Source: Glycocaulis sp. (GTDB lineage Bacteria; Pseudomonadota; Alphaproteobacteria; Caulobacterales; Maricaulaceae). Taken from it: a stretch of 64,000 bases of DNA. Under the pieces are notes generated by a model. That model worked only from the letters and a program-made list of their open reading frames with translations, was not told the DNA's origin and did no database searches. Positions 22,715 to 43,207 of this stretch are shown here, piece after piece. Position numbers and translations under genes: made by a program. Within the stretch, counting starts at the first letter, position 1, and each line of letters starts with the position of its first letter. Location: assembly GCA_022565665.1 (NCBI GenBank), contig JAIUMI010000001.1, positions 310,001-374,000 on the forward strand, in the 5' to 3' direction.

Positions 22715-23140
22715 CTAGCGCGCCTCGAATTTGGCAAGGCGGGCCTTCGAGCCCTCATGGATGAGGCGTAGCTCGTCCAGCGTCTCGTCAATCTGGCGGC
22801 GCTTGTCTTCCAGCTCGGCGATTTTCTCGCCCGTGCGCGCGATCACATAGCGCAGCTGCTTCTCACGACCTTCGCCCTCGCGTCCGTACAGATCGAGGAA
22901 GGTTCGGATCTCCGACAGCTTGGAGCCTATCGCCTTGGCGCGCAGGATCAGCGACAGGCGCTGGCGGTCGGTCTCGGTATAGATGCGCTGTGTGCCGACC
23001 CGCTTCGGGCTTATCAGCCCCTTGTCCTCATAGAAGCGTATGGTGCGCTGGCTGATGTCAAAATGCGCAGCCAGATCGGCGATCCCGTAAAGGGTTTCAC
23101 CGTCGCGGACGCTCTCCCGCTCTGCTGCTGCTCCCGCCAT
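22715..23140 (-). CDS. MerR family transcriptional regulator, likely local regulator of the catabolic operon
   Basis: The 141-residue protein begins its MerR DNA-binding domain at about residue 16 (YGIADLAAHFDISQRTIRFYEDKGLISPKRVG...RIYTETDRQRLSLI). A long C-terminal coiled coil (about 85-130, ending RLAKFEAR) dimerises the protein. There are no metal-binding cysteines, so an organic ligand or acyl-CoA effector is more likely than a metal. The size and layout resemble LiuR, the MerR-type regulator of branched acyl-CoA degradation in proteobacteria. It is divergent from the SDR-carboxylase operon, with an ACGTATACGT palindrome between them. Confidence 0.85.
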   Translation of the reverse strand: MAGAAAERESVRDGETLYGIADLAAHFDISQRTIRFYEDKGLISPKRVGTQRIYTETDRQRLSLILRAKAIGSKLSEIRTFLDLYGREGEGREKQLRYVIARTGEKIAELEDKRRQIDETLDELRLIHEGSKARLAKFEAR

Positions 23141-23170
23141 TCCACCCCTACCTGACGCTTACAAGAACTG

Positions 23171-23185
23171 CTTGACGTATACGTA
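23171..23185. promoter_or_regulatory. Operator candidate between MerR gene and catabolic operon
   Basis: TTGACGTATACGTAA contains the perfect 10-base palindrome ACGTATACGT and also provides a TTGACG -35-like hexamer for the rightward operon. It lies in the 117-base divergent gap, 31 bases before the regulator start and 73 bases before the GTG of the SDR gene. The shape suits a MerR/LiuR-type dimer. Confidence 0.5.
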
Positions 23186-23257
23186 AGCATGCGCCAGCCT
23201 GAAGGAGATGACAAGAGCCGCAAGCAAGCAGGCCGGTCTGGGAGGAGACGCACACCC

Positions 23258-24139
23258 GTGAGCGCCAAGGGGTATGACAGCGTGTTTCGCAATGACCTCT
23301 TCGCCGGGAAGACGATAATCGTCACCGGCGGCGGATCCGGCATTGGCCGCTGCACGGCCCATGAGCTGGCAAGCCTTGGCGCGAAGGTCATCATCACAGG
23401 CCGCAAGACGGAAAAACTGCAAGGCGTAGCCGCCGAGATCACGGCAGATGGCGGCATCTGCCACAGCGCGAGCTTCGACATACGCGACGAGGAGGCCGTG
23501 AAGGCCGCCGTGGCGGATATCGTCGCCGAACATGGCCCCATCCATGGGCTTGTGAACAATGCCGGCGGGCAGTTTCCGGCGAACTTGCAGGACATCTCCA
23601 AGAAGGGCTGGGACGCGGTAATCGCGACCAACCTCACTGGCGGCTTCCTGATGATGCGTGCCGTGTTTGAGGCTTCCATGGCCGAACATGGCGGCACGAT
23701 CGTCAACATGACGGCCGATATGTGGAACGGGATGCCGGGCATGGCCCATTCCGGTGCTGCGCGCGCGGGCATGTCAAACCTTACCAAGACGGCGGCCTTT
23801 GAGTGGGCGCAGTATGGCGTGCGGGTGAATGCCGTGGCGCCGGGCTGGATCGCCTCCTCGGGCATGGACACCTATGGCGGCGCGGTGCGCGCCATGATCC
23901 CGCATCTGCGCCAGCACCTGCCGGCCAAGCGCATGGGCAGCGAGGCGGAGGTGTCCTCTGCCATCGTGTTCCTCTTAAGCGAGGGCGCAAGCTTCATCAC
24001 CGGCGTGACCTTCGCCATTGATGGCGGCGCGCCGCTGGGTAGTGCGGTCTTCCCGCTGCCTGACCATGAGAAAAGCACCGCCTATAACGGCTTCCACCGG
24101 GCGGTGGACCCGGAAGTCCTGCGCGGAGGTGGCAGCTAA
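23258..24139 (+). CDS. SDR family oxidoreductase (AtuB-like)
   Basis: The 293-residue protein has the Rossmann motif IIVTGGGSGIGRC near residue 20 and the NNAGG motif. The catalytic region reads MAHSGAARAGMSNLTKT, in which the usual Tyr of YxxxK is missing, as in 2,4-dienoyl-CoA and trans-2-enoyl-CoA reductases. The rest, EWAQYGVRVNAVAPGWI, is typical. This suggests reduction of an unsaturated or 3-oxo acyl-CoA with NAD(P)H. I chose the GTG at 23258 because GGAGGAG lies 10 bases before it; the ATG at 23189 would read through the operator region. It overlaps the carboxylase gene by one base (TAATG). First gene of the island. Confidence 0.8.
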   Translation: MSAKGYDSVFRNDLFAGKTIIVTGGGSGIGRCTAHELASLGAKVIITGRKTEKLQGVAAEITADGGICHSASFDIRDEEAVKAAVADIVAEHGPIHGLVNNAGGQFPANLQDISKKGWDAVIATNLTGGFLMMRAVFEASMAEHGGTIVNMTADMWNGMPGMAHSGAARAGMSNLTKTAAFEWAQYGVRVNAVAPGWIASSGMDTYGGAVRAMIPHLRQHLPAKRMGSEAEVSSAIVFLLSEGASFITGVTFAIDGGAPLGSAVFPLPDHEKSTAYNGFHRAVDPEVLRGGGS

Positions 24140-25749
24140 TGCCTGTGCTTACATCCCGCCTCAACGCCTCAAGCGACGAATTTCGCGCCAATGCGGACAA
24201 GATGGCCGAGCGGCTCGCCGAGGTGCGTGGCCTTGAAGAAAAGGTGCGCGCCAATTCAGAGCGCAAGCGGGCAGATTTTGAAAAGCGCGGCCAGCTATTG
24301 CCCCGTGAACGTGTGGCGCGGCTGCTCGACCGCGATGCGCCCTTTATCGAGCTGTCGCCTCTGGCGGGCCTGAAAATGCACGATGATGACGGGGACAAGG
24401 GCGCCTCTGGCGGCGGCTCCGTTGTCGGTATCGGGCAGGTCTGCGGCAAGCGCGTCATAATCGGGGCGAGCGACAGCGCCATCAAGGGCGGTACGGTCGC
24501 ACCGATGGGCCTGAAAAAGGCTCTGCGCGCGCAGGAAATCGCGTTTGAGAACAAGCTGCCCATGATCCATCTGGTGGAATCAGGCGGCGCGAACCTGCTC
24601 TACCAGGCCGAGATTTTCGTCGATGGCGGGCGCAGCTTTGCCAATCAGGCGCGGCTTTCGGCGGCTGGTATCCCGCAGATCGCTGTCGTGCATGGCTCCT
24701 CCACGGCGGGCGGGGCCTATCTGCCGGGCCTGTCCGACTATGTGGTGCTGGTGAAGGACCGCTCGAAAATCTTCCTCGCCGGACCACCGCTGGTGAAGGC
24801 CGCGATTGGCGAGGACGCCGATGATGAAAGCCTTGGCGGGGCAAAGCTCCACGGCGAGGTGACAGGCCTTGGCGAATACGTCGCCGAGAACGATGCGCAG
24901 GCCATCGCCTATGCCCGCGAGATCATGGACAAGCTGAACTGGGACGCGGCCACGCCGCCGGGGCAAGGCGAACCGCCGAAATTTGCCAGCGAGGAATTGC
25001 TGGGCGTCGTGCCCGCCGATGAGCGCACGCCTTATGATGTGAAAGAGGTGATCGCGCGCATCGTCGATGGGTCGGACTTCCTGGAGTTCAAGGCGCGCTA
25101 TGGCGCGGAGACGGTGTGCGGCCATGCCCGCATTGGCGGGCATCTGGTGGGGATTCTGGGCAATAACGGTCCGATCCAGCCCGAAGGCTCGATGAAGGCA
25201 GGGCAGTTCATCCAGCTCTGCGATCAGTCCGGCACGCCGCTCATCTTCCTGCAGAACACCACCGGCTACATGGTTGGCTCGAAGGCCGAGGCTGACGGTG
25301 CGATCAAGCATGGCTCGAAAATGATCCAGGCTGTTGCCAATGCGCGCATCGCCAAGATCACCATCGTGCTCGGCGGCTCTTATGGCGCGGGCAATTACGG
25401 CATGTGCGGGCGCGGCTTTGATCCGCGCTTCATCTTTGCCTGGCCGACCGCCCGCACCGCCGTGATGGGCGGGGCGCAGGCCGCCAAGGTGATGGAGATC
25501 ATCACCCGCGCCAAGAATGAGCGCGCCGGCCAGCCGACCGATGAAGATGGCCTCAAAGCCATGAGTGACATGATCCGCACCGGGCTGGAGGACCAGTCCT
25601 ATGCCCTCTTCGGCACAGCGCGGCTGTGGGATGATGGCATTATCGACCCGCGCGACACCCGCGCCATCCTTACCGAGACCCTGAATATCTGTGCGGAGGC
25701 CGATGCCCGCACGCTCCACCCCAACACGTTTGGCGTGGCCCGCTTCTAG
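24139..25749 (+). CDS. Acyl-CoA carboxylase carboxyltransferase subunit (geranyl-CoA carboxylase beta-like)
   Basis: The 536-residue carboxyltransferase has the two crotonase-fold halves of biotin carboxylases. The oxyanion-hole glycines are in GSSTAGGAYLPGLSD and GSYGAGNYGMCGRGFDPRF, and the CoA-binding FLAGPPLVKAA is present. It forms the beta part of an alpha6beta6 carboxylase with the biotin subunit at 27724. It differs from methylcrotonyl-CoA carboxylase by having a short FVDGGRSFANQARLS segment where MCC has the longer DREHFGR insert. This favours a bulkier substrate such as geranyl-CoA (AtuC). Substrate preference is inferred from this segment and the gene order. Confidence 0.83.
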   Translation: MPVLTSRLNASSDEFRANADKMAERLAEVRGLEEKVRANSERKRADFEKRGQLLPRERVARLLDRDAPFIELSPLAGLKMHDDDGDKGASGGGSVVGIGQVCGKRVIIGASDSAIKGGTVAPMGLKKALRAQEIAFENKLPMIHLVESGGANLLYQAEIFVDGGRSFANQARLSAAGIPQIAVVHGSSTAGGAYLPGLSDYVVLVKDRSKIFLAGPPLVKAAIGEDADDESLGGAKLHGEVTGLGEYVAENDAQAIAYAREIMDKLNWDAATPPGQGEPPKFASEELLGVVPADERTPYDVKEVIARIVDGSDFLEFKARYGAETVCGHARIGGHLVGILGNNGPIQPEGSMKAGQFIQLCDQSGTPLIFLQNTTGYMVGSKAEADGAIKHGSKMIQAVANARIAKITIVLGGSYGAGNYGMCGRGFDPRFIFAWPTARTAVMGGAQAAKVMEIITRAKNERAGQPTDEDGLKAMSDMIRTGLEDQSYALFGTARLWDDGIIDPRDTRAILTETLNICAEADARTLHPNTFGVARF

Positions 25750-25769
25750 ACCGCTGAAGGAACGCTCCC

Positions 25770-26927
25770 ATGCAGTTCACCACCGAACACAACCAGCTTC
25801 GCGACACGATTGCCAAATTCGTCGCGACCGAGATCAACCCGTATGTCGAGGAGTGGGAAAAGGCGGAAGAGTTTCCCTCCCACGAGCTTTTCAAGAAGAT
25901 GGGTGATCTGGGCCTTCTGGGCCTGCGCTGGCCGGAGAAGTTCGGCGGGGCGGGGCTCGATTTCTCCTACGCACTGGTGCTCGCCGAGGAGCTGGGCCTT
26001 GTGAACTGTGGCGGCGTGCCGATGGCCATTGGCGTACAGACCGACATGGCGACCCCGGCGTTGGCAAATTTCGGTTCTGACGAGCTGCGCGCGGAATTTC
26101 TCGCGCCCGCCATTTCCGGCGATGCGGTGGTCTGCCTTGGCGTGTCCGAACCGGGCGGCGGGTCTGATGTGGCGGCGCTGAAAACCACAGCCAAATCCGA
26201 CGGCGATGACTACGTCATCACCGGCACCAAGATGTGGATCACCAATGGCATGAAGGCGGACTGGTGCTGCCTGCTCGCCAACACGTCGGACGGGCCTGCG
26301 CACGGCAACAAATCCCTCATCATCGTGCCGATGAATTCCAAGGGGATCACCCGCCAGAAAATCCACAAGATCGGCATGCACTGCTCAGACACCGCCCAGC
26401 TCTTCTTCGACGAGGTGCGGGTGCCCAAACGCAACCGGATCGGCGATGAGGGCGCAGGCTTCCTCTACCAGATGCTGCAATTCCAGGAGGAGCGCCTGTT
26501 CGGCGCGGCCTCCTCGCTCAAAAGCCTCGACCGGGCGATTGATCTGACCATCGAATACACGCGCGATCGCAAGGCGTTCGGCCATTCGGTGCTGGACAAT
26601 CAGGTGGTCCATTTCCGCCTCGCCGAGCTGCGCACCGAGGTGGAGGCGCTGCGCGCGCTGACCTACCGGGCCATCGACGAGTTCATGGCGGGACGGGATG
26701 TGACGCGCCTTGCTTCCATGGCGAAGCTGAAATGCGGGCGGCTGACGCGCGAGGTGGCCGATAGCTGCCTGCAATACTGGGGCGGCATGGGCTACACGTC
26801 CGACAACCCCATCGCCCGCTCCTTCCGCGACGGCCGCCTGATCTCAATCGGTGGCGGCACCGACGAGATCATGCTGGGCATTATCTGCAAGCTGGAAGGC
26901 ACCCTGCCCAGGCGCCGGAAAGACTGA
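25770..26927 (+). CDS. Acyl-CoA dehydrogenase (citronellyl-CoA/isovaleryl-CoA type, AtuD-like)
   Basis: The 385-residue flavoprotein is a complete acyl-CoA dehydrogenase: N-terminal helices, FAD-binding GVSEPGGGSDVAALKT and MWITNG, and a C-terminal helical domain. At the position of the usual catalytic Glu (YEGT) it has GGGT. A Glu in FQEERLFG (residues 240-241) sits where isovaleryl-CoA dehydrogenase carries its base. That points to a branched-chain substrate, as does GGVPMAIGVQTDMATPAL, which I recall from citronellyl-CoA dehydrogenase. It introduces the double bond before carboxylation. Its stop overlaps the next start by one base. Confidence 0.88.
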   Translation: MQFTTEHNQLRDTIAKFVATEINPYVEEWEKAEEFPSHELFKKMGDLGLLGLRWPEKFGGAGLDFSYALVLAEELGLVNCGGVPMAIGVQTDMATPALANFGSDELRAEFLAPAISGDAVVCLGVSEPGGGSDVAALKTTAKSDGDDYVITGTKMWITNGMKADWCCLLANTSDGPAHGNKSLIIVPMNSKGITRQKIHKIGMHCSDTAQLFFDEVRVPKRNRIGDEGAGFLYQMLQFQEERLFGAASSLKSLDRAIDLTIEYTRDRKAFGHSVLDNQVVHFRLAELRTEVEALRALTYRAIDEFMAGRDVTRLASMAKLKCGRLTREVADSCLQYWGGMGYTSDNPIARSFRDGRLISIGGGTDEIMLGIICKLEGTLPRRRKD

Positions 26928-27727
26928 TGAGCGCGCCCCAGACCCTTCTCATCGAAACCCGCGACGGCGTGCGTCATGTGACGCTGAACCGGCCGAAAAC
27001 CCGCAATGCCATGTCGATTGCCATGGTGGACGAGCTGCTGGCTGCGCTGAAAAGCGCTGAAGATGACGGCGTACGCGCCATAGTGCTGACAGGTGCGGGC
27101 GGGCATTTCTGCTCGGGCGGTGATGTGAAGGATATGGGCGCGGCCTATGTCGGTCCCGGCCCCGATGGCGAAGATCCGGCAGCGAAGGTCAACGCCCAGT
27201 TCGGCCATTTGTGCAAAGCCTATGCGGAGACCGGCCTGCCGGTGATCGTCGTGCTGGAAGGCGCGGTGCTGGGCGGCGGATTTGGTCTGGCCTGCGTTGC
27301 CGATGTGGCGCTGGCGCGCGAGACGGCTCTGTTCCGCCTGCCCGAGACCGGGCTTGGCCTTGTCCCGGCGCAGATCGCGCCGTTTCTGGTCGAACGGCTT
27401 GGCTATTCCGAAGCGCGCCGTCTGGCCGTGACGGGCGGGAAGATAGACGCGCTGGGCGCGCTGCGCCTTCGCCTCGTGCATGGCGTGCATGAGGGCGAGG
27501 ACGCGATGAATGCCGCGCTTGAGGCTGTTCTGGCTGACATCCGCAAAGGCGCGCCGAATGCGATTGCTCAGACCAAGCGCCTGATGCGCCGTGCGCGCCT
27601 GGCTGATGCCGGTTCGCTGATTGATGATGCGGCGAAGGTCTTTGCCGCCGCTGTGCGCAGCGAGGAGGGGGCGGAAGGGCTGTCTGCCTTCATCGAGAAA
27701 CGCCCGGCCAGATGGGTGCAGGGATGA
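26927..27727 (+). CDS. Enoyl-CoA hydratase (AtuE-like)
   Basis: The 266-residue crotonase-fold enzyme has the two oxyanion-hole motifs, GGHFCSGGDVKDM near residue 62 and VLGGGFGLACVADV near 110. It also has the catalytic-region segment LPETGLGLVPAQIAPFLVERLG near 140, which carries one of the two expected glutamates. The other position is not clearly Glu, so an unusual hydration mechanism is possible. In the terpene pathway this step hydrates isohexenylglutaconyl-CoA. Its 3' end overlaps the alpha carboxylase gene by 4 bases. Confidence 0.85.
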   Translation: MSAPQTLLIETRDGVRHVTLNRPKTRNAMSIAMVDELLAALKSAEDDGVRAIVLTGAGGHFCSGGDVKDMGAAYVGPGPDGEDPAAKVNAQFGHLCKAYAETGLPVIVVLEGAVLGGGFGLACVADVALARETALFRLPETGLGLVPAQIAPFLVERLGYSEARRLAVTGGKIDALGALRLRLVHGVHEGEDAMNAALEAVLADIRKGAPNAIAQTKRLMRRARLADAGSLIDDAAKVFAAAVRSEEGAEGLSAFIEKRPARWVQG

Positions 27728-29694
27728 GCGCTTACCGCACCATCAAGTCCGTTCTGGTGGCCAATCGCGGCGAGATTGCCGTGCGGGTCTTACGCTATGC
27801 GAAAAGCCGCAATATCCGCGCCATCGCCGTCTATTCCGATGCCGATGCAGAGGCGATGCATGTGCGCGAAGCGGATATGGCCGTGCATATCGGTCCGGCA
27901 GCGGCATCGGCAAGCTATCTCAATATCGAGGCGATCATTGCGGCAGCCAAGGCGACCGGCGCGGACGCCATCCATCCGGGCTATGGCTTCCTGTCGGAGA
28001 ATGCCGCGTTCGCGCGGGCTTGTGCGGCCGAAGGCATCATCTTCATCGGTCCGCCGGCCGACGCCATCGAGGCGATGGGCGACAAGGCGCGCGCCAAGGC
28101 GCTGCTGGCGGCTTCCGGCATTTCCATGGTGCCCGGCTGGCAGGGCGAGGATCAGTCTGACGCCAATCTGGCCAAGCAGGCTGATGCTATCGGCTATCCG
28201 CTGCTGATCAAGGCCGTCGCGGGCGGGGGCGGGCGCGGTATGCGCGCGGTGAACTCCAGCAAAGAGTTTGCAGAGGCTCTGAAATCGGCGCGGCGCGAGG
28301 CCAAATCCTCCTTTGGCGATGATGCGGTGCTGCTGGAAAAGCTGATCCACCCTGCCCGCCATGTTGAGGTGCAGGTGTTCGCCGACAGCCATGGCAACAC
28401 CATCCATATCGGCGAGCGCGATTGCTCGGCCCAGCGCCGCCGCCAGAAGGTGGTCGAGGAAGCCCCGTCGCCTGCCGTCAACGAGACACTGCGTGCCGCC
28501 ATGGGCGCAGAAGCTGTGCGGGTGGCGCAGGCCGTGGGCTATGTCGGCGCGGGCACGGTGGAATTCCTGCTGGATGCAGACGGGAAGTTCTACTTCCTTG
28601 AAATGAACACCCGCCTGCAGGTGGAGCATCCTGTAACCGAAGAGGTCTACGGGATGGACCTTGTGGAATGGCAGTTCGTGGTGGCCGCAGGCGGCATGCT
28701 GCCGGCCACGCAGGAGCAGATCGAGCCTGAAGGCCATTCGATTGAAGTGCGCCTCTACGCCGAAGACCCCTTGGACGGGTTCAAGCCGCAATCGGGCGAA
28801 ATCATCCATTTCGAGCCGGACGATGCCGCGCGCGAAGTGCGTATTGATACCGGGTTTGAAACCGGCGATGTGGTCAGCACGGCCTATGACGCGATGGTGG
28901 CCAAGATCATAGCCTTCGCACTCAATCGCGATGAGGCCATCGACCGGCTGATCGCCGGGCTCTCCAAGGCCCCCATGCTGGGCGTGAAAACCAATCGCGA
29001 TTTCCTGATCAGGCTGCTGGATAGCGAAGCCTTCCGCACCGGCGCGGTAACCATTTCTGATCTGGACGACTGGGCGGCGTCTGCAAGCGGCCCGTTCGCG
29101 GCGGAACCCGTCCTCGGCGAAGGAATAGCGGTGGCGGCAGCACTGCTCGCCGCCCCGGATGAGGGTGCGGTACGTGGCGGATCGGTGAAGCGCTTTACCT
29201 TGCCGCTAGAGGCTGATGGCGAAGCGACGGACGTCTTCGTGGAGCAGGATGGCGCGCATGCCGTGACGGTGAACGTCGGCAACATCCGCCATTCGATCAC
29301 CCTCCTCGCAGAAGACGCGCCCCTTTTGCGCTACCGTCTCGACGGTGTGGACCGGCAGGCCTGTGTGGCCGAAGGCGCAGACGGCACGCTCCACATTGCA
29401 TTGGAGCGCCGCATCGTTGCGGTGCGTGAACCCTCCGCCTTCTCCGACGGCGATGCCGCTGACCCCGCCCGCATCATCGCGCCGGTCTCCGGCGCGCTGG
29501 TGGCGGTGAACGTCAAACCCGGCGATGCGGTGAAGGCGGGCGATGTGCTTGCCCTCATGGAAGCGATGAAAATGGAAATGCGCCTCACCGCCGCTGCCGA
29601 TGGCGTCGTGAAGGCGGTGCACGCCGCTGCGGGCCAGCAGGCCGCAGGCGGCACGCTTCTGATTGAACTGGAACTGGAAGGATCAAAGCCATGA
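27724..29694 (+). CDS. Biotin carboxylase / biotin carrier subunit (geranyl- or methylcrotonyl-CoA carboxylase alpha)
   Basis: The 656-residue protein has a complete biotin carboxylase domain (1-450: VLVANRGEIAVRVLR, HPGYGFLSENAAFARAC, the ATP-grasp glycine loop AGGGGRGMR, and EMNTRLQVEHPVTE). A middle BT-type domain follows, then a C-terminal biotin carrier with LMEAMKMEMRL, biotinylated Lys about residue 616. It carboxylates biotin with ATP and bicarbonate and passes it to the beta subunit at 24139. The ATG at 27724 overlaps the hydratase stop. The length fits MCC/GCC alpha chains. Confidence 0.92.
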   Translation: MSAYRTIKSVLVANRGEIAVRVLRYAKSRNIRAIAVYSDADAEAMHVREADMAVHIGPAAASASYLNIEAIIAAAKATGADAIHPGYGFLSENAAFARACAAEGIIFIGPPADAIEAMGDKARAKALLAASGISMVPGWQGEDQSDANLAKQADAIGYPLLIKAVAGGGGRGMRAVNSSKEFAEALKSARREAKSSFGDDAVLLEKLIHPARHVEVQVFADSHGNTIHIGERDCSAQRRRQKVVEEAPSPAVNETLRAAMGAEAVRVAQAVGYVGAGTVEFLLDADGKFYFLEMNTRLQVEHPVTEEVYGMDLVEWQFVVAAGGMLPATQEQIEPEGHSIEVRLYAEDPLDGFKPQSGEIIHFEPDDAAREVRIDTGFETGDVVSTAYDAMVAKIIAFALNRDEAIDRLIAGLSKAPMLGVKTNRDFLIRLLDSEAFRTGAVTISDLDDWAASASGPFAAEPVLGEGIAVAAALLAAPDEGAVRGGSVKRFTLPLEADGEATDVFVEQDGAHAVTVNVGNIRHSITLLAEDAPLLRYRLDGVDRQACVAEGADGTLHIALERRIVAVREPSAFSDGDAADPARIIAPVSGALVAVNVKPGDAVKAGDVLALMEAMKMEMRLTAAADGVVKAVHAAAGQQAAGGTLLIELELEGSKP

Positions 29695-30578
29695 GCAAGG
29701 CCGTCATCACCTGCGCGATCAATGGCGTGCTGACCAATCCCAAACAGCATCCCGTGCCCGTCACGCCTGCTGAAATGGCGAAAAGCGCGCGCGAGGCCTA
29801 CGATGCGGGCGCGGCCGTCATGCACGTTCATTTCCGCATGCAGGAAGACGGGATGGGCGGGTTTCCAAGCTGGGATCCGGACCTGGCGCTGGAAATGTGC
29901 GACGCGATCCGCGTTGCCTGCCCCGGCGTGATCATCAACCAGACAACCGGCATTGTCGGCCCGGATGTGTCCGGGCCGGTAGCCTGCATCCGCAAGGTGA
30001 AGCCGGAAATCGCCGCGTGCAATGCGGGCTCGCTGAACTATCTCAAGATCAGAAGCGACGGGTCGTGGGCCTGGCCGCCCATGATGTTCGACAATCCGGT
30101 GGAGAAGATCCAGACCATGATCGACGCCATGGCCGAGACCGGCGCGCATCCGGAGTTCGAGTGCTTTGATGTCGGCATTGTCCGCTCGGTCAACATGTAT
30201 ATCGAGAACGGGATGGCCCCCTCGTCCCACTATAATTTCGTGATGGGCGTGGCGTCCGGCATGCCGTGCGATGCGCGGCTGCTGGAGTTGCTGACCGAGT
30301 ACAAGCGCGAAGGTGATCCCTGGCAGACCACGCTGATCGGGCGCGCAGAAATCTGGCCGGTTCACCAGCGTGCCGCCGAACTGGGGGGTATGCTGCGCAC
30401 CGGTCTTGAGGATACTTTCTATCTGCCTGACGGGACACGTGCTTCAGGTAACGGAGCGCTGATCGAGGCACTTGTGCAATGTGCGCGTAATGCGGGCCGG
30501 GAGATCGCTTCTCCGTCAGAAGCCCGCGCGCTGATGAAGCTCGGGGAGAATGCTGATGGTAGCCGCCACCGCCGCTGA
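29691..30578 (+). CDS. BKACE family protein (DUF849, 3-keto-5-aminohexanoate cleavage enzyme family)
   Basis: The 295-residue TIM-barrel protein has the zinc-binding HVH pair (His45/His47 in AVMHVHFR), INQTTG and NAGSLNYL in mid-barrel, and the C-terminal VHQRAAELGGMLRTGLEDTFYLP. These enzymes cleave beta-keto acids with acetyl-CoA to give acetoacetate and a new acyl-CoA. The characterised Kce has a Glu (from memory Glu14) in a TGAET motif; here that motif is NGVLT, with Leu, which argues against an amino-containing substrate. It occupies the place where an HMG-CoA lyase would be expected. It overlaps both neighbours. Confidence 0.85.
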   Translation: MSKAVITCAINGVLTNPKQHPVPVTPAEMAKSAREAYDAGAAVMHVHFRMQEDGMGGFPSWDPDLALEMCDAIRVACPGVIINQTTGIVGPDVSGPVACIRKVKPEIAACNAGSLNYLKIRSDGSWAWPPMMFDNPVEKIQTMIDAMAETGAHPEFECFDVGIVRSVNMYIENGMAPSSHYNFVMGVASGMPCDARLLELLTEYKREGDPWQTTLIGRAEIWPVHQRAAELGGMLRTGLEDTFYLPDGTRASGNGALIEALVQCARNAGREIASPSEARALMKLGENADGSRHRR

Positions 30579-32373
30579 TCTGCCGCGTCTGGCCGGAGGC
30601 AAACGCTTTCCGTCCACACCGGCCCGCCTGATCGATAATGGCGAGACGAAGCCGGCCGCGCCGGCCTATGTCTTCCATGACGGGTCGGACTGGGTGACAC
30701 GCAGCTGGCGGGAATACGCCGATGAGGCGAGGCAGGCTGGCCGCGCGCTGGTCGCGCTGGGCCTGCAGAAGGACCAGTCGGTGGCGATCCTCGGCTTCAA
30801 CCGGCCCGAATGGACGATAATGGCCAACGCCGCGATGATGGCAGGTGGCCGACCGTCCGGCATTTACTGGACCAGCGCGCCGCCCGAAATCGCCTATATC
30901 CTCCAGCATTCGGAAAGCCCGGTCTATCTCGTGGAGGATACCGAGCAGGCCCGTCAGGCGCTCGAACTCAAGGCCGACTGCCCGAACCTGGCCCATATCG
31001 TCGTCATGCGCGGGGCCGAGGCACCTGAGGGGACGATGAGCTGGGAGGCCTTCATGGCGCTCGGCACCGAGGACCATGAGGACGCGTTGCTGGCCCGGCT
31101 CGACGCGCTGGAAGAGCATGGCATCGCCACACTCATCTACACATCAGGCACCACAGGGCCGCCCAAGGCGGTCATGCTGAGCCATGGCAATATTGCGTGG
31201 AGCGCGTCCGCGCTGATCGAGATGTTCGGCCGCAAGGAAGGGGACCGCTCGCTTTCCTATCTGCCGATTGCCCATATCGCGGAGCAGCAGGCCTCGGTAC
31301 ACAATCACGCCGCCGCTGGCGGCACGCTCTGGTTTGCGCGCTCGATGGAGACGCTGGCCGAGGATCTCAAAGCCTGCCGGCCGACCATCTTTTTCGGTGT
31401 GCCACGCGTGTGGGAGAAGATGGCCGAGACCATTCAGGGCCGCCTCGCCGAAGCGACCGGACCCAAGGCCAAGCTCGCAGGCTGGGCGATGGAGACCGCA
31501 CGGGCGGTCAATCTTGCCGCGATCGACAACAGCTCAGTCTCGCCGCTCCTGAAAGTTCAAAAAGCGATTGCCGACAAGCTTGTCCTCTCCAAGGTGAAGG
31601 ACGCGTTGGGGCTGGATAAATCGCGCATGCTGATCTCCGGCGCGGCGCCTATCTCGCCGGAGGTCCTGCGCTTCTTTGCAGGGCTCGATCTCGTGATCTA
31701 TGAGGGCTATGGCCAGTCGGAAACCTCAGCGCCCTCCAGCTTCAACGGCCCTGGCGCAGCGCGCCTTGGCTCGGTCGGCAAGCTGGTGCCGGGCATGCAG
31801 TGCCGTGTCACCGAAGAGGGCGAGCTTCTGGTCAAGGGCCCGAACATCTTCAAGGGCTATATGAAGAATAACGACGCCACCGCCGACAGCTTCACTGCCG
31901 ATGGGTGGATGCGCACCGGCGATGTGGTCAATATCGATGATGACGGCTTCATCTTCATCACGGGCCGGATCAAGGACATCATCATCACGGCAGGCGGCAA
32001 GAACATCACGCCGGCCAATCTCGAAACCGATCTGATGAATATCCCGCTGATCGAACACGCGGTCGTGGTGGGTGACGCCAAGCCATACCTCGCGGCCCTC
32101 CTCACCCTTAGCGCGGACGGGCTTGCCGCCTTTGCCAAAAAGCATGGCCTTGAGGGCGATATCCGCAATCACCCCAAAGTTCTGGAGGCCATTCAGGCGG
32201 GCGTCGATGACCTCAATACCCGCCATGCGCGCGTGGAGAATATCCGCAAGTTTGCCATCCTGCCCGGCGCACTGAGTGTGGAGGGCGGCGAGCTGACACC
32301 GACCATGAAGGTGAAGCGCAAGGTGGTGATTGAGCGCCACAAGGAGACGGTTGAAAGCCTCTATGCCAAGTAG
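30556..32373 (+). CDS. Long-chain type acyl-CoA synthetase (AMP-binding)
   Basis: The 605-residue adenylate-forming enzyme has the P-loop TLIYTSGTTGPPKAVMLSH near residue 194. Further motifs are LPIAHIAEQ, the aromatic segment GYGQSETSAPSS, and the C-terminal hinge GWMRTGDVVNIDDDGFIFITGRIKDIIITAGGKN. It activates a carboxylic acid to its CoA thioester, the entry step for the enzymes encoded upstream, as AtuH does in the terpene pathway. I preferred the ATG at 30556 over 30550 because GGGGAG is then 7 bases away. The start overlaps the BKACE gene by 23 bases. Confidence 0.9.
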   Translation: MVAATAADLPRLAGGKRFPSTPARLIDNGETKPAAPAYVFHDGSDWVTRSWREYADEARQAGRALVALGLQKDQSVAILGFNRPEWTIMANAAMMAGGRPSGIYWTSAPPEIAYILQHSESPVYLVEDTEQARQALELKADCPNLAHIVVMRGAEAPEGTMSWEAFMALGTEDHEDALLARLDALEEHGIATLIYTSGTTGPPKAVMLSHGNIAWSASALIEMFGRKEGDRSLSYLPIAHIAEQQASVHNHAAAGGTLWFARSMETLAEDLKACRPTIFFGVPRVWEKMAETIQGRLAEATGPKAKLAGWAMETARAVNLAAIDNSSVSPLLKVQKAIADKLVLSKVKDALGLDKSRMLISGAAPISPEVLRFFAGLDLVIYEGYGQSETSAPSSFNGPGAARLGSVGKLVPGMQCRVTEEGELLVKGPNIFKGYMKNNDATADSFTADGWMRTGDVVNIDDDGFIFITGRIKDIIITAGGKNITPANLETDLMNIPLIEHAVVVGDAKPYLAALLTLSADGLAAFAKKHGLEGDIRNHPKVLEAIQAGVDDLNTRHARVENIRKFAILPGALSVEGGELTPTMKVKRKVVIERHKETVESLYAK

Positions 32374-33835
32374 CAGGCCCTTGCCGGAGAGGCTGGACAC
32401 GCTTGTCATCGGCGCGGGCATGTCCGGCATCGCCATGGGCTATCACCTGAAACAGCACGGGCTGGATGATTTCCTGATCGCGGAAAAGTCAGACGGGTTT
32501 GGCGGGGTCTGGCGCGACAACCGCTATCCCGGCGCGGGCTGTGACGTGCCGAGCCACCTCTACTCCTTCTCCTTTGCGCTAAAACCTGACTGGAGCCGCA
32601 AATACGCGCTGCAGGCGGAGATCCTCGACTATTTCGAAGCCTGCGCCGCGCGCTTCGGGCTGGGCGATCATCTGCGCACGGGGCTTATTGTCCGCTCACT
32701 GACATTCGAAGAAAGTGAAGGCCGCTGGCAGGTGCGCTTTGCCGATGGACGCCAGACCAGTGCGCGTGTGGTGATCAGCGCGGTCGGCCAGCTCTCCGAA
32801 CCCTTCACGCCCGAGATTGCGGGCCTTTCAGATTTTACTGGCCCCGTCATGCACACCGCGCGCTGGAACAATTCGGTAAAGCTCGACGGCCAGCGCGTAG
32901 CGCTAATCGGCAATGCAGCGAGCGCCATCCAGCTCTTGCCGGAGGCGAGTGAACGCGCGCGCGAACTGACCGTTTTCCAGCGCACCCCCAACTGGATCAT
33001 CGCCAAGCCTGACAGGGCCTTTACCGCATTCGAAAAATGGGCCTTTGCCCATATTCCGGGCTGGCAGCGGCTCTACCGGATGGGCAGTTTCATCATCCAC
33101 GAGCTGCGCTATTCCGCGCTCATCAAGGGTTCGCTCGCCAGCCGTTTCACACTCTGGTCTGGCAAGCGCAGGATCACCAGAGGGATCAAGGATCCGGCGC
33201 TGCGCGCGAAGCTGACACCGGACTACCCGCCGGGCTGCAAGCGCATCCTGCTCTCCAATGATTTCTTCGAGGTGATGCAGCGCGGGAATGTCCGCCTGGT
33301 GACGGACGGGATCAGGCGCATTCTCCCGGACGGGGTGGAGACATCCAGCGGCGAAATCATCCCTGCTGACACCCTGATCATGGCGACAGGTTTTGTAACG
33401 ACCGAATTCCTGCCGACGCTGGACGTGACGGGCGCAGAGGGCCGCAGCTTGCGCGAAGCGTGGGGCGCATCGCCGCGTGCCTACAAGGGCGTGGCAGTGG
33501 CCGGGTTCCCGAACCTTTTCATGCTGTACGGGCCGAACACCAATCTGGGCCACAACTCCATCATCTTCATGGTTGAACGGCAGGCTGAATACATCGCCGA
33601 CAAGGCGGGCCTGATCCTCGATGGCGGGCTGAAAACCCTCACCGTCCGGCCGGAGGCAGAAAGCCGCTATAACGCGGAACTGCAACAACGCCTTTCGAAA
33701 ACCGTGTGGGCCGGAGACTGCCCGTCCTGGTACAAGACCTCAGACGGCGTCATCACCCAGAACTGGGAAGGCCTTGCCACCCGCTTTGCGCGCACGCTTG
33801 GCCGGCGCGATGATGCGGACTGGGAGGCGGTTTAG
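32363..33835 (+). CDS. Baeyer-Villiger-type flavin monooxygenase
   Basis: The 490-residue protein has the FAD Rossmann motif VIGAGMSG at 15-22, then GGVWRDNRYPGAGCDVPSHLYS, typical of cyclohexanone and hydroxyacetophenone monooxygenases. The Baeyer-Villiger fingerprint appears as FTGPVMHTARWN (158-169), with Asn where Pro or Asp is usual. The NADPH motif reads LIGNAASAI, a degenerate GxGxxG. It would insert oxygen into a ketone to give an ester or lactone. It overlaps the ligase stop by 11 bases, and its own stop is 6 bases from the convergent esterase gene. Confidence 0.87.
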   Translation: MPSSRPLPERLDTLVIGAGMSGIAMGYHLKQHGLDDFLIAEKSDGFGGVWRDNRYPGAGCDVPSHLYSFSFALKPDWSRKYALQAEILDYFEACAARFGLGDHLRTGLIVRSLTFEESEGRWQVRFADGRQTSARVVISAVGQLSEPFTPEIAGLSDFTGPVMHTARWNNSVKLDGQRVALIGNAASAIQLLPEASERARELTVFQRTPNWIIAKPDRAFTAFEKWAFAHIPGWQRLYRMGSFIIHELRYSALIKGSLASRFTLWSGKRRITRGIKDPALRAKLTPDYPPGCKRILLSNDFFEVMQRGNVRLVTDGIRRILPDGVETSSGEIIPADTLIMATGFVTTEFLPTLDVTGAEGRSLREAWGASPRAYKGVAVAGFPNLFMLYGPNTNLGHNSIIFMVERQAEYIADKAGLILDGGLKTLTVRPEAESRYNAELQQRLSKTVWAGDCPSWYKTSDGVITQNWEGLATRFARTLGRRDDADWEAV

Positions 33836-33841
33836 CGCCCT

Positions 33842-34762
33842 TTAAGCCAGTTGCAGTTCCACCCAGACGCGCGCACGGTCAATGGCCCAGTCGGCTTCGG
33901 GGATGAGAGGCGAGAAGATCTGGAAGTCGTGCCACATCCCGTCCCAGATTTCGCAATCAACCGGCACGCCCGCCGCTTCCAGCTTTTCGGCCAGCCGCGT
34001 GGAATCGCTCAAGAGGATTTCGTCTGAGCCTACCTGAATGAGGGTTGGCGGCAGGCCCTTGAGGTCAGCAAATAGCGGTGAGGCTTCCGGATCATCGCCC
34101 GGCCGTCCGCCAAGATAAAGCTGGCCGCCCGCACCGAGATAGTCCGGGTTGAGCATGGGATCGCGCATCGCCTTTGTGCTTACGCTCTCCCCGCTCATCG
34201 ACAGATCCGTCCACGGAGAGATCAGATAGAGCGCGTCAGGCAGACGCTCACCCGCATCACGCAGGCGCAGGGTGGCCGACAGCGCAAGCCCGCCGCCGGC
34301 GGAATCGCCAGACAGGATCACCGGGCCTTTTTCCTCCGCCATCACCGCCTGAATCGCACTCACCGCGTCGTCGATGGCCGCGGGGCAGGGATGTTCGGGC
34401 GCCATGCGGTAATTGATAGAGACGGCGTTCAGGCCGAACGCCTTGCTCATGCGGGCCACCAGCGCGCGATGGCTGAGCGCAGAGCCGCGCGAATACCCCC
34501 CGCCATGCAGGTAAACCAGCGTGCCACGGCGCGCTCCATCCGGGGTGAAGCTGAGCCCGCCCATCCCGCCCAATACGACGGTCGTCACGGCAACGCCTTT
34601 GGGCATGGGCATCTGGCGGCCAGCCTTGTCCATGCGGGCGCGGGCATGAGCGACGTCAATGCCGGGAGACAGGCTCTCGCGCCCGGCCTTGCGCGCCATG
34701 CGCCGTCCGAGCAGGCCGCGCAGGCGCAACCCCTTGCGCTGGGGGATGTGTTCGATCGTCAT
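33842..34762 (-). CDS. Alpha/beta hydrolase, hormone-sensitive-lipase type
   Basis: The 306-residue protein belongs to esterase family IV. The oxyanion motif is LVYLHGGGYSRGSAL near residue 85. The nucleophile elbow VILSGDSAGGGLALS follows near 158, then the Asp region (LIQVGSDEILLSDS) and the catalytic His in MWHDFQIFSP. Such enzymes hydrolyse short to medium esters or lactones. It is downstream of the monoglyceride-lipase-like gene with a 4-base overlap. The pair converges on the monooxygenase and could hydrolyse its ester product. Confidence 0.86.
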   Translation of the reverse strand: MTIEHIPQRKGLRLRGLLGRRMARKAGRESLSPGIDVAHARARMDKAGRQMPMPKGVAVTTVVLGGMGGLSFTPDGARRGTLVYLHGGGYSRGSALSHRALVARMSKAFGLNAVSINYRMAPEHPCPAAIDDAVSAIQAVMAEEKGPVILSGDSAGGGLALSATLRLRDAGERLPDALYLISPWTDLSMSGESVSTKAMRDPMLNPDYLGAGGQLYLGGRPGDDPEASPLFADLKGLPPTLIQVGSDEILLSDSTRLAEKLEAAGVPVDCEIWDGMWHDFQIFSPLIPEADWAIDRARVWVELQLA

Positions 34763-35706
34763 GCCTGTTCGCGCCCTTCTTCGATGATGCGTGCCGCCCA
34801 GTCGGCAAAGTCGCTCATGGCCTGCTCATAGCCGGTATCGTGCAGGGCTTCGTGGCGCCCTTTCGGGTCCATGCGCACGGTCACGCGGGTAAAGCGCGTA
34901 TTATAGAGCCGCGCCTGCAGCGTCTTGATCGCCTTGCCATTATTGGTGGCCGGATCATGCCCGCCGCCTGCGAGATGGAAAGGCAGGTCACGCGCGGTGT
35001 TTTCCAGACGCGCGCCGTCCTCCGCGCGCTCGAACCCGGTGATGAAGTCGCCCCACAGCGCGCGCGAGGCGGGCCAGCCGCACATCGGATCGTTGATATA
35101 GGCATCGACCTCTTCGGGGATGCGCGAGAGCCAGTCGAACATGGTGCGCGCCTTTTTCATCCGCTTGCCCCAGGTTTCGAAGGTCAGCGCATTGATCCAC
35201 AGGCTCGGCTCGGTGCGCTTGCGGACAAAACCCTCCAGCCACAATACAGCGCGCATCAGGCCGGTCAGGCTGCCCAGCGCCAGATTGGAGTTCCAGATCG
35301 CCACGCCGGCGAGATGGGGGTGCTCGTCCATCGCCTGGTTCATCGCGATCACCCCGCCCATGGAGTGACCGAACACGATCACCGGCAGGCCCGGAAAGCG
35401 TTTCTGCATGTGTTCACGTACAAAGCGGGCATCGCCCATCACCTTGTTCCAGCCGTCTTGCAGCGCATAGACGGTGGGCGGCGCGTCCGGCGCGGTGGTC
35501 AGGGCGTGGCCACGATGATCGTGCGCGCTGACATGGAAGCCCCGCCCTGCAAGGTAACTGGCAAAGCGCTGATAGCGGCCTGAATGTTCGGCCAATCCAT
35601 GATGTATCATCACGATGCCCTTTGCCGGGCCTTCAGCCTCCATCACGCGCAGCGCAAGGCGCGCGCCGGTCGGGCTCTCCACGAATTGCGGTTCGAACGG
35701 GCGCAT
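34759..35706 (-). CDS. Alpha/beta hydrolase, monoacylglycerol lipase-like
   Basis: The 315-residue serine hydrolase has the HG motif of monoglyceride lipases, VMIHHGLAEHSGRYQRFASYL. The nucleophile elbow VIVFGHSMGGVIAMNQ is near residue 117, and AHDHRGHALTT precedes it. The C-terminal Asp and His are in GGGHDPATN and GRHEALHDTGYE. There is no signal peptide. Its start is divergent from glpK, and glycerol released by such a lipase would feed glycerol kinase, an alternative to a role in the adjacent catabolic island. Confidence 0.85.
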   Translation of the reverse strand: MRPFEPQFVESPTGARLALRVMEAEGPAKGIVMIHHGLAEHSGRYQRFASYLAGRGFHVSAHDHRGHALTTAPDAPPTVYALQDGWNKVMGDARFVREHMQKRFPGLPVIVFGHSMGGVIAMNQAMDEHPHLAGVAIWNSNLALGSLTGLMRAVLWLEGFVRKRTEPSLWINALTFETWGKRMKKARTMFDWLSRIPEEVDAYINDPMCGWPASRALWGDFITGFERAEDGARLENTARDLPFHLAGGGHDPATNNGKAIKTLQARLYNTRFTRVTVRMDPKGRHEALHDTGYEQAMSDFADWAARIIEEGREQA

Positions 35707-35790
35707 CTTCCCCCCTTATCTTCAAGCTGAAGCGAGTTTAGCCTCCATTCCAACTGGCTTGCCATCACCTTGGCATCGGGGGAGGATTTC

Positions 35791-37287
35791 ATGCTCAGCC
35801 GCTCGCGCAAAGCGCCCGCCATACTGGCGCTCGATCAGGGTACGACCTCGAGCCGGGCGATTGTTTTCGATACACTTGGCGGCGTGATCGCGATTGCGCA
35901 GGAGGAGTTCAACCAGATCTACCCCCGGCCCGGCTGGGTTGAGCATGACCCGGAAGTGATCTGGGCAACCGTGCTCTCCACCGCCCGCAAGGCCATCAAG
36001 GCTGGCGATGCCAAGGGCTATGAGATCGCCTGCATTGGCGTCACCAATCAGCGCGAGACGACGCTTGTCTGGGACCGGCAGACCGGCGAACCTGTCCACA
36101 ACGCCATTGTCTGGCAGGACCGGCGGACAGGAGAGACATGCGCAAAGCTGGAAAGCGAGGGCGCAGGCGCGGAGGTGGCCAGGCGCGCCGGGCTGGTGCT
36201 GGACCCGTATTTCTCCGCCACAAAAATCGGCTGGATACTCGATAATGTGCCGGGTGCGCGCAAAAGGGCGGAGGCCGGAAAACTCGCCTTCGGCACGGTG
36301 GAAAGCTTCCTCATCTGGCGGCTGACCAAAGGCAAGCGCCACGTCACCGACGCCACCAATGCCAGCCGGACGAGCCTCTATAATCTCGAGGCGCAGGACT
36401 GGGACGAAACGCTTCTGAAGCTCTTCAACATCCCCCGCGCTTTGCTGCCGGAGGTGGTTGATTGCGCCGGCGAGCTGGGCATGGCGGACAAGTCCGTGCT
36501 GGGCCGCGCCATCGCGATCACCGGATCGGCAGGCGACCAGCAGGCCGCCGCCATCGGACAGGCCTGCATTACCCCCGGGGAGATGAAATCCACCTATGGC
36601 ACGGGCGCCTTCATGCTGCTCAACACGGGCGACACGCCTGTTCTCTCGCAGAATCGGCTGCTGACCACTACCGCCTGGCGGCTGAACGGCAAGTCCAGCT
36701 TCGCGCTGGAAGGCTCGGTGCTTTCTGCCGGTGCGACTATACAATGGCTGCGCGACGGACTGGGGATCATCGCCAAAGCCTCCGAGGTGGAGGCGCTCGC
36801 CGAAAGCGCAGACCCGGACGCGCCGGTCTATCTGGTGCCCGCCTTTACAGGGCTCGGCGCGCCGCACTGGAATCCTGAGGCGCGCGCCATGATCACCGGC
36901 ATCACGCGGGGTACGGGAAGGGCCGAGATCGCGCGCGCTGCGCTGGATTCAACCGCCCTGCAGACCCTTGATCTCCTGACCGCCATGCGCGCGGACGGGG
37001 CGGCGGCGACACGGCTTAAAGTGGATGGCGGCATGGTGGCCAACAACGCCTTCCTGCAGCGCCTGTCAGACATTTGCGCGCTGGAGGTGGTACGCCCGGT
37101 CAATGCCGAGACCACCGCCTGGGGTGCGGGTTTTCTTGCCGGGCTGGGTGCCGGGATTTTCGGCGATCTCTCCGAGGCGGCGCGCCTGTGGAAAGCCGAG
37201 CGCAGCTTTATCCCGGAGGCCGATACGGCCAGCCGCCAGCGCCTGATTTCGGGTTGGCAGGACGCGCTGAAACGCGCCACGATGTAA
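35791..37287 (+). CDS. glpK: Glycerol kinase
   Basis: The 498-residue FGGY-family kinase has the glycerol kinase N-terminus ILALDQGTTSSRAIVFD, substrate-binding TNQRETTLVWDRQTG and AIVWQDRRT, ATP-site GSAGDQQAAAIGQ and STYGTGAFMLLNTG, and PAFTGLGAPHWNPEARA. It phosphorylates glycerol to glycerol 3-phosphate in the cytosol. I chose the ATG at 35791, preceded by GGGGGAGG at 5-6 bases; a TTG at 35770 would include that ribosome site. No glpF or glpD gene is adjacent. Its stop codon lies inside a 17-base palindrome. Confidence 0.95.
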   Translation: MLSRSRKAPAILALDQGTTSSRAIVFDTLGGVIAIAQEEFNQIYPRPGWVEHDPEVIWATVLSTARKAIKAGDAKGYEIACIGVTNQRETTLVWDRQTGEPVHNAIVWQDRRTGETCAKLESEGAGAEVARRAGLVLDPYFSATKIGWILDNVPGARKRAEAGKLAFGTVESFLIWRLTKGKRHVTDATNASRTSLYNLEAQDWDETLLKLFNIPRALLPEVVDCAGELGMADKSVLGRAIAITGSAGDQQAAAIGQACITPGEMKSTYGTGAFMLLNTGDTPVLSQNRLLTTTAWRLNGKSSFALEGSVLSAGATIQWLRDGLGIIAKASEVEALAESADPDAPVYLVPAFTGLGAPHWNPEARAMITGITRGTGRAEIARAALDSTALQTLDLLTAMRADGAAATRLKVDGGMVANNAFLQRLSDICALEVVRPVNAETTAWGAGFLAGLGAGIFGDLSEAARLWKAERSFIPEADTASRQRLISGWQDALKRATM

Positions 37288-37298
37288 TAATATTACAT
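37282..37298. promoter_or_regulatory. Perfect 17-base palindrome upstream of thrS
   Basis: ATGTAATA-A-TATTACAT is a perfect 8-1-8 inverted repeat, very A+T-rich against a G+C-rich background. It overlaps the glpK stop codon and lies 83 bases before the thrS start. It looks like an operator or a promoter-proximal site; no T-box features are present. Confidence 0.45.
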
Positions 37299-37381
37299 TC
37301 ACGTGGAATCCGGTCATGGACTTGTGCGGCGCACGCGCTTAAATCCGGAGCCCTGTCCCACATTTGATCGTCAAGAAACCC

Positions 37382-39217: not shown

Positions 39218-39219
39218 GC

Positions 39220-40509: not shown

Positions 40510-40573
40510 CGGGCCTGAGCTTGGGCAACGGAGGACAGGAGCGGTTCAGGCTGGCCCGTTTCGCAACTTGCCG

Positions 40574-41722: not shown

Positions 41723-41767
41723 TGCGAACTACTCCACCCGGCACCGCATAACCTGTTCCTAGTTCCG

Positions 41768-41896
41768 CAGCCCATCCGGGCTGCGATGTTCCGCGCACTA
41801 GCGCGGGCGGCCGTTCGGCCTCTCGGGCCGCCTTGCGGCCCGCAAGCGCGACCGCGCGTCCGCAGCTTCTGCGAGGAGCGAAGCCCGGATGGGCTG
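41768..41896. repeat. Structured intergenic repeat, copy B, between dnaN and recF
   Basis: The 129-base element has perfect 15-base inverted arms (CAGCCCATCCGGGCT 41768-41782, AGCCCGGATGGGCTG 41882-41896). The interior is G+C-rich and self-complementary (GGCGGCC...GGGCCGCC) and contains TTCCGCGCACT and GCAAGCGCGA shared with copy A at 9317. It starts about 40 bases after the dnaN stop on the leftward strand, so it may also attenuate recF transcription. Confidence 0.65.
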
Positions 41897-41934
41897 AGCA
41901 TCACAAAAAGATGGACCCCGGCCCTTGGCCGGAC

Positions 41935-43053: not shown

Positions 43054-43113
43054 CGCCTGAACCTTCTGACCTTTTTAAGGAGACGGATATCCGTGAACCG
43101 GGCCGCCACCGGG

Positions 43114-43130
43114 GAATCGCTTGTTGAATC
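43114..43130. promoter_or_regulatory. Pair of GANTC methylation sites in the dnaN promoter region
   Basis: GAATC occurs at 43114-43118 and again at 43126-43130, 61 bases upstream of the dnaN start. GANTC is the CcrM adenine methylation target in Caulobacterales and many other alphaproteobacteria and is often found in cell-cycle-controlled promoters. Confidence 0.5.
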
Positions 43131-43147
43131 GGTTAAACACCATAGAC

Positions 43148-43185: not shown

Positions 43186-43207
43186 CGGGGGGCGAGGTGG
43201 AGCGCGC

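Follow-up and report, generated by a model that had tools for sequence, protein, structure and literature searches.

What does a beta-keto acid cleavage enzyme (BKACE) do inside an operon that otherwise resembles the acyclic terpene utilization (Atu) operon of Pseudomonas? The question is posed by positions 22715 to 35706 of a 64,000-nucleotide stretch of a Glycocaulis sp. genome (Maricaulaceae; contig JAIUMI010000001.1, positions 310,001 to 374,000; hereafter the window), where eight genes run on the plus strand from 23189 to 33835, each overlapping the next or separated from it by about 20 bases at most. The published Atu route is said to include a lyase that removes acetate and leaves a 3-oxoacyl-CoA, a step assigned to LiuE by one source (PMC4097962) and to AtuA by another (PMC4847356). 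We found that the locus joins a carboxylase of the geranyl-CoA carboxylase (GCC) type to a BKACE of a separate subfamily, that this arrangement and a palindrome upstream of it are conserved, and that the subfamily is linked to GCC where AtuA is mostly missing. This linkage is what is new, the Atu-like core itself being known, and we think that BKACE taking AtuA's place, which the preliminary description of this DNA had not remarked on, is the main point of the locus. The genes concerned are the following.

23189 to 24139, plus strand: short-chain dehydrogenase (SDR) in the AtuB position, by Pfam; likely start at the GTG at 23258
24139 to 25749, plus strand: GCC-type carboxyltransferase beta subunit (AtuC-like), by PDB scores, the diagnostic glycine and the lack of a 3-residue insertion
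25770 to 26927, plus strand: acyl-CoA dehydrogenase (ACAD), AtuD-like by position and identity, by Pfam
26927 to 27727, plus strand: enoyl-CoA hydratase of the isohexenylglutaconyl-CoA hydratase type (AtuE-like), by PDB matches
27712 to 29694 (open reading frame), plus strand: biotin carboxylase/biotin carboxyl carrier protein alpha subunit, AtuF-like by position, by Pfam
29691 to 30578, plus strand: BKACE of the GCC-linked subfamily, by PF05853
30550 to 32373, plus strand: AMP-forming acyl-CoA ligase of the FadD type in the AtuH position, by Pfam

Judged by its sequence, the carboxylase is of the GCC type and not a methylcrotonyl-CoA carboxylase (MCC). The beta subunit scored 723 bits against the solved GCC beta (5ikl) and 519 bits against MCC beta (3u9r). 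According to an excerpt of PMC4673880, the residue that is Phe in MCC is Gly in GCC, MCC carries a 3-residue insertion immediately ahead of it, and the GCC pocket is larger than the MCC pocket. The window's beta subunit has the Gly and lacks the insertion, as do all 106 GCC-type alignment rows (window included), and the single MCC row, from the window's own genome, shows the opposite and carries the insertion. This row is the second carboxylase beta of that genome, encoded on contig C18, which shares 51% identity with the beta subunit of the window. For the alpha subunit the best PDB match was MCC alpha, PDB matches not separating GCC from MCC in this case. By its sequence relatives the hydratase is AtuE-like: its matches to 4k3w (enoyl-CoA hydratase/isomerase, 252 bits) and 4zu2 (deposited as a putative isohexenylglutaconyl-CoA hydratase, 246 bits) stood well above the next match (125 bits); it remained below the cut-off of NCBIfam NF004227 (gamma-carboxygeranoyl-CoA hydratase; 127 versus 426 bits). 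Because the carboxylase is of the GCC type and the hydratase AtuE-like, the core is an Atu-like operon, as the preliminary description of this DNA had proposed; the carboxylase did not fall inside MCC, the outcome which that description had held to speak against its proposal, in view of the glycine, the absent insertion and the higher GCC score. An ordinary leucine (MCC) operon would have a similar gene set, and MCC and GCC are homologous; with the GCC residues in the window's beta subunit and the separate MCC-type paralogue on C18, we rejected this reading as highly improbable.

The relation between BKACE and AtuA was assessed in 397 genomes of the phylum, drawn evenly (at least 90% completeness requested) and including the window's own. 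A GCC-type beta subunit was present in 40 of these at E 1e-180, and up to 20 kb were fetched around the other 39. The BKACE subfamily adjoined GCC in 12 of the 39 fetched loci and not in 27. When one fused AtuA was used as the query (E 1e-20), AtuA was detected in 19 of the 27 loci lacking BKACE. No BKACE locus contained it, and this covers the loci of relatives and the named loci described below. In each of the 19 loci in which it lay near GCC, it shared the strand of the beta gene and lay on its 5' side. The SDR and ACAD of the window have counterparts in these 27 loci as well (56 to 67% identical in 23 and 60 to 68% identical in 25, respectively). No match to PF07287, by which AtuA was counted in whole genomes, was found in the window's own genome (G000) at E 0.001.

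At the genome level, 61 GCC genomes were searched for PF07287, and the 27 without a BKACE at the locus plus four more were searched for the subfamily, whose matches formed two groups (at least 63% or at most 45% identity). Among 40 GCC genomes the subfamily was present in 14 (the window genome, ten g38 genomes, G259, G314 and G178, the last with the subfamily on another contig than GCC) and absent from 26. A fused-length AtuA, that is, a full PF07287 hit in an open frame of 600 or more (a split set after the data were seen), occurred in 0 of the 14 genomes with the subfamily versus 25 of the 26 without (Fisher P = 6e-10), and any full hit in 2 of 14 (G169 and G178) versus 25 of 26 (P = 2e-7; n = 40 and relatedness ignored in both cases). 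Counted by genus, AtuA was present in 0 of 9 with the subfamily versus 11 of 12 without (P = 3e-5). When all 61 genomes are counted, including 22 taken from relatives or named loci because they had BKACE, the corresponding figures were 5 of 35 versus 25 of 26 (any full hit) and 1 of 35 versus 25 of 26 (fused length). Pfam domains of the AtuA forms were checked in one fused and one short protein, and open reading frame lengths in two long and four short ones. AtuA and BKACE tend to exclude each other, in a near one-for-one exchange. As a separate observation, short AtuA genes in L205 to L208 lie away from GCC and are followed by a small separate open frame which, by eye, resembles the fused C-terminal domain of long AtuA.

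The carboxylase tree, made by a quick method with long branches flagged and labelled by locus (so that G178, as L190, counts as without BKACE), needs four changes of BKACE linkage, at least three of them forced by supported branches; linkage therefore arose or disappeared more than once. Transcription in G314 runs in the order BKACE, SDR, beta, ACAD, hydratase, alpha and second SDR, so that BKACE occupies the place that AtuA has in canonical loci, for example that of G121. BKACE also precedes beta in the g38 genomes, immediately in nine of the ten and with a gap in L199. Such a swap in several bacterial groups suggests that there may be a second way of degrading branched terpene-like molecules.

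As to its chemistry, we put at somewhat better than even the chance that the operon encodes a variant Atu pathway for 3-methyl-branched (isoprenoid) acids, in which a cut of the 3-hydroxy-3-methylglutaryl-CoA (HMG-CoA) lyase type is followed by BKACE. The ligase and the dehydrogenase would yield a 3-methyl-2-enoyl-CoA, the GCC-type carboxylase would carboxylate its gamma methyl, and the hydratase would form the tertiary alcohol, a 3-hydroxy-3-alkylglutaryl-CoA. An HMG-CoA-lyase-type enzyme encoded elsewhere would then cut on the CoA side, giving acetyl-CoA and a free 3-oxo acid, which BKACE would convert with acetyl-CoA to acetoacetate and a shortened acyl-CoA without spending ATP, a route that would replace the removal of acetate by AtuA. 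The products of HMG-CoA lyase are given in an excerpt of PMC12016498 as acetyl-CoA and acetoacetate, which places the cut of this enzyme on the CoA side, with a free 3-oxo acid as the other product; the stated Atu products, acetate and a 3-oxoacyl-CoA, would appear to be unlike these. AtuA-like ThnQS is described in the same excerpt, from unpublished results cited there, as cutting on the carboxylate side and leaving a 3-oxoacyl-CoA. BKACEs act on a free 3-oxo acid, which with acetyl-CoA gives acetoacetate and an acyl-CoA (excerpts of PMC6365646 and PMC11961710), and a BKACE has been proposed for a late step of one catabolic route in which a beta-keto acid is formed (PMC6365646). Because the CoA-side cut would yield the very substrate of BKACE, the exclusion of AtuA and BKACE would be accounted for, and the late cleavage that the preliminary description had assigned to BKACE agrees with the reaction proposed here. 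An HMG-CoA lyase was present in 24 of 24 BKACE genomes searched and, by a single match above the cut-off on contig C5, in the window's own genome; MCC was present in 27 of 27 BKACE genomes tested. A CoA-transferase pair (PF01144) on contig C3 of the own genome could activate the acetoacetate.

The BKACE of the window matched PF05853 at 278.9 bits (cut-off, 24.8), and the best PDB folds for its predicted structure (mean pLDDT, 85) were of BKACE/DUF849 proteins, with cis-epoxysuccinate hydrolases close behind. When aligned to 3-keto-5-aminohexanoate cleavage enzyme (Kce), residues H45, H47, R236, E240 and D241 were invariant in 29 BKACE rows; we take the aligned Kce residues to form the metal site (two His and Glu) and the catalytic pair (Arg and Asp). 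The position of what we take to be Glu14 in Kce numbering is an invariant Leu in the subfamily, which stood clearly apart from five other BKACEs found in the same order (identical BKACEs dropped). It is also distant from all solved BKACEs (at most 118 bits), and a stretch from W126 to P130, invariant in the 29 rows, is missing from 3no5 and Kce, with a different insertion at that place in 3e02. This distance and the extra stretch would suit a BKACE that is itself the lyase, cleaving 3-hydroxy-3-alkylglutaryl-CoA directly in a retro-aldol reaction as a true functional analogue of AtuA; the near one-for-one exchange, the AtuA place that BKACE occupies in G314 and g38, and the presence of human HMG-CoA lyase among the weak fold neighbours (rank 40) point the same way. 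We nevertheless regard this as unlikely, since the residues to which we assign BKACE chemistry by their presumed roles in Kce are invariant. The BKACE studied in PMC11961710, as far as its excerpt goes, uses a beta-keto acid and acetyl-CoA.

How widely the arrangement is kept was assessed by scanning a species-genome collection with the BKACE alignment, which matched at least 592 stretches with at least 557 relatives; the best 80 were kept as named loci, a biased set that leans to close relatives. Locus counts rest on tblastn synteny, gene predictions being rough in high-GC DNA, and proteins with internal stops or less than 90% coverage were dropped from the alignments. The counts are not all independent, because some genomes were fetched under two locus labels (L014/L033, L015/L027, L017/L028 and L019/L031). 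The alpha subunit lay directly before BKACE in 71 of the 76 named loci where over 600 bases precede the BKACE gene, at a median gap of 19 bases. In the 56 named loci that reach beyond 7.5 kb upstream, relatives were found of beta (51), ACAD (51), hydratase (49), alpha (53) and SDR (28), and of the ligase, within 1.5 kb after BKACE, in 17. Nearly the whole block recurs in ten other Maricaulaceae loci (L011 to L020), L014 being without hydratase and BVMO (the type I Baeyer-Villiger monooxygenase treated below) and L019 showing no S33 esterase in its stretch; with this recurrence in the family and the core in most testable named loci, the gene order is far from chance. The GCC-linked subfamily occurs in Alpha- and Betaproteobacteria and in Myxococcota. 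Two stretches of viral contigs matched a pattern, and neither encodes a relative.

Neighbouring genes bear on the substrate. Of 51 testable loci, 41 have an SCP2 lipid-binding protein gene in the interval from MerR to beta, and no Maricaulaceae locus is among them. The gene is also present in L178, a GCC locus without BKACE; the predicted cluster c11 is probably antisense to SCP2, to judge from positions. In five Betaproteobacteria loci (L058, L080, L093, L103 and L106), a GMC-type oxidoreductase gene lies near the BKACE operon (Pfam on the L058 copy). The SCP2 neighbours in other bacteria and the FadD-type ligase point to a lipid substrate, and phytol-type isoprenoids are our guess; the open-licence literature on phytol and isoprenoid ketones yielded nothing of use. 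The same SCP2 and GMC genes hint at a larger lipid, and GCC clades differ, as might be expected if BKACE acted downstream or on a side substrate and excluded AtuA because the substrates differ (for example, long isoprenoids versus monoterpenes) rather than because both serve the same step. SCP2 in L178, however, stands beside a GCC without BKACE, and linkage changed on several GCC branches with AtuA mostly gone each time, which a shift of substrate would not require; we find this explanation improbable.

Several observations weigh against the variant Atu pathway with a CoA-side cut. We infer every one of its reactions, the lyase step before BKACE and the substrate. No HMG-CoA lyase was found in the island or, by tblastn, in any of the 135 loci, and the presence of this lyase in BKACE genomes does not discriminate, because it is to be expected for leucine anyway in genomes with MCC. 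Membership of the BKACE family leaves the reaction unfixed, since cis-epoxysuccinate hydrolases share the fold. The exchange has its exceptions: 4 of 34 BKACE genomes had a full PF07287 hit (three short forms and one of fused length, in G452, where a second GCC is present, yet AtuA lies outside the 17 kb fetched around it); G241 and G330 had weak partial hits, which were left out of the counts; and G191 had neither AtuA nor a GCC-linked BKACE. In five named loci (L039, L045, L047, L056 [Myxococcota] and L087), BKACE is without an adjoining alpha gene, and no hydratase of the AtuE type was found by tblastn near BKACE in Glycocaulis profundi, several Sulfuritalea/Rhodocyclales genomes and g38 genomes.

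Downstream of the ligase, three further genes might supply the pathway.

32330 to 33835, plus strand: type I BVMO-like flavin monooxygenase, by best PDB matches; likely start at the ATG at 32363
33842 to 34762, minus strand: alpha/beta hydrolase, hormone-sensitive-lipase type esterase, accessory, by PF07859
34759 to 35706, minus strand: alpha/beta hydrolase (Hydrolase_4, S33), accessory, by PF12146

The best PDB matches of the BVMO-like protein were phenylacetone and steroid monooxygenases. Type I BVMOs carry the fingerprint FxGxxxHxxxW(P/D); the window's protein has FTGPVMHTARWN, FxGxxxHxxxW with N at the last place. FxGxxxHxxxW was present in 14 of 15 family loci, with P or D as the next residue in 12 of 15 (N in L013, A in L016, no match in L032). 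The preliminary description had read the block as one ketone pathway, in which the BVMO converts a ketone to an ester and an esterase releases the acid; once activated by the ligase, this acid is degraded by the carboxylase branch, with BKACE at the end. The BVMO-type protein, the overlap of its gene with the ligase gene and the esterases kept beside it in the family are in line with such a pathway. The BVMO was found, however, in only 15 of 135 loci, all of Maricaulaceae, and was not seen by tblastn beside the block in Glycocaulis profundi (L014/L033), which keeps most of the block. The ketone pathway is accordingly the less credible even beside the two doubtful alternatives above: the BVMO can feed the core in one family at most, and we rejected it as part of the conserved core on account of this family-limited distribution. 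The esterases are not part of that core either; both hydrolase genes adjoin the operon in Maricaulaceae loci, and a 45% identical relative of the 33842 to 34762 esterase is present in L186, a GCC locus without BKACE. Of the earlier interpretation, the Atu-like core stands and the general entry step through BVMO and esterases does not. Ketones may enter the core through the BVMO and esterases in Maricaulaceae, and isoprenoid methyl ketones would suit the BVMO. Near the esterase genes, an NADH:flavin oxidoreductase (PF00724, L016 15529-17196, the copy on which Pfam was run) was also observed, with relatives in L017 to L019 and L028 to L031; these eight Maricaulaceae loci are in part the same genome twice.

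Upstream, the operon faces a divergent regulator gene and a palindrome.

22715 to 23140, minus strand: MerR-family regulator, by Pfam MerR_1 and MerR-DNA-bind; divergent from the operon
23172 to 23187, no strand: palindrome TTGACGTATACGTAAG, candidate operator of the MerR protein, upstream of SDR and kept across loci

Among the 56 named loci that extend over 7.5 kb upstream, 50 have a MerR relative there on the opposite strand. The upstream regions of 55 of 67 loci contain a palindrome of the form TTGACGTTAACGTCAA or TTGACGTATACGTCAA by a strict pattern, chosen after the sites had been seen, for which 200 shuffle sets gave a mean of 0.015 and a maximum of 1; a looser pattern matched 60 of the 67 upstream regions. 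Two further palindromes of the own genome, outside the window (C1:66561-66580 and C3:49799-49812), lie near other acyl-CoA dehydrogenase genes, and related genomes have comparable sites; taken alone, the two in the own genome are weak evidence, because a control pattern also matches twice there (0 times in several relatives). Regulators of the MerR family, LiuR, control branched-chain amino acid use in Proteobacteria (excerpt of PMC5343134).

The genes named in the preliminary description, with their positions and overlaps, were all recovered, including the MerR gene that diverges from the operon and the two esterase genes that converge on it. Its start for the alpha subunit, 27724, is an in-frame ATG, the open reading frame itself opening at 27712. 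The SDR probably starts at GTG 23258 rather than ATG 23189, as GGGAGGAG lies upstream of the GTG and the palindrome ends at 23187; the BVMO probably starts at ATG 32363. Beyond the island, genes for a PIF1-like helicase, a RecF/SMC-type protein, DNA polymerase III beta and DnaA lie on the minus strand at 39220 to 44680, adjoined by a threonyl-type tRNA-synthetase gene (37364 to 39217); a cluster of replication genes thus lies near the island. In the closest relatives (22715-41722 compared with L011 to L013, L015 and L027), the RecF/SMC-type gene (40574 to 41722 in the window) stands directly before MerR, and in L027 a pntB relative lies beyond the synthetase gene. The window's flanks are reversed relative to these relatives, which would fit an inversion of the segment that runs from MerR to the synthetase gene.

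If the variant Atu pathway is correct, the BKACE subfamily would gain a physiological role, none having been found in print, and a second type of isoprenoid degradation could be recognised by a marker gene; the exchange would also predict that AtuA is the lyase in Pseudomonas. More broadly, though we hold it at somewhat less than even, isoprenoid beta-decarboxymethylation may be finished in two chemically different ways, that of AtuA (carboxylate-side cut to acetate and 3-oxoacyl-CoA) and that of BKACE (CoA-side cut to a free 3-oxo acid, then acetyl transfer to give acetoacetate and acyl-CoA), of which one would have replaced the other several times; the BKACE way would be widespread in Alpha- and Betaproteobacteria and Myxococcota and may serve long isoprenoids such as phytol. 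In keeping with the earlier remark that the combination is undescribed, no paper among the matches listed from the open-licence literature joins BKACE with the geranyl-CoA or acyclic-terpene pathway; subscription papers could describe it.

Among known systems, ThnQS of anaerobic naphthalene degradation acts on a comparable substrate, a tertiary 3-hydroxyacyl-CoA with a carboxylate (excerpt of PMC12016498), but cuts on the carboxylate side to leave a 3-oxoacyl-CoA for thiolase, and section 13 of that paper names no BKACE. The Liu/MCC leucine operon shares a related carboxylase architecture and the type of regulator (LiuR, MerR family) with the island, which differs in its GCC-type carboxylase, its BKACE, the lack of HMG-CoA lyase in the operon and the separate MCC in the genome. 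Kce and the BKACE of the deoxyribonate pathway have fold, family and catalytic residues in common with the island BKACE, which, unlike Kce, belongs to a separate subfamily tied to a gamma-carboxylase and has Leu at the Kce Glu14 position. The closest parallel in gene order is the Pseudomonas operon, atuABCDEFGH. With gene roles as in PMC4097962 and PMC4847356, the two share the order SDR, GCC beta, ACAD, AtuE-type hydratase and GCC alpha, with a later ligase, and the GCC active-site glycine. They differ in the regulator (MerR in the island, AtuR in Pseudomonas) and in AtuA, which lies beside GCC in Pseudomonas and is missing from the island; after alpha, Pseudomonas has a second SDR (AtuG), whereas the island has BKACE there instead.

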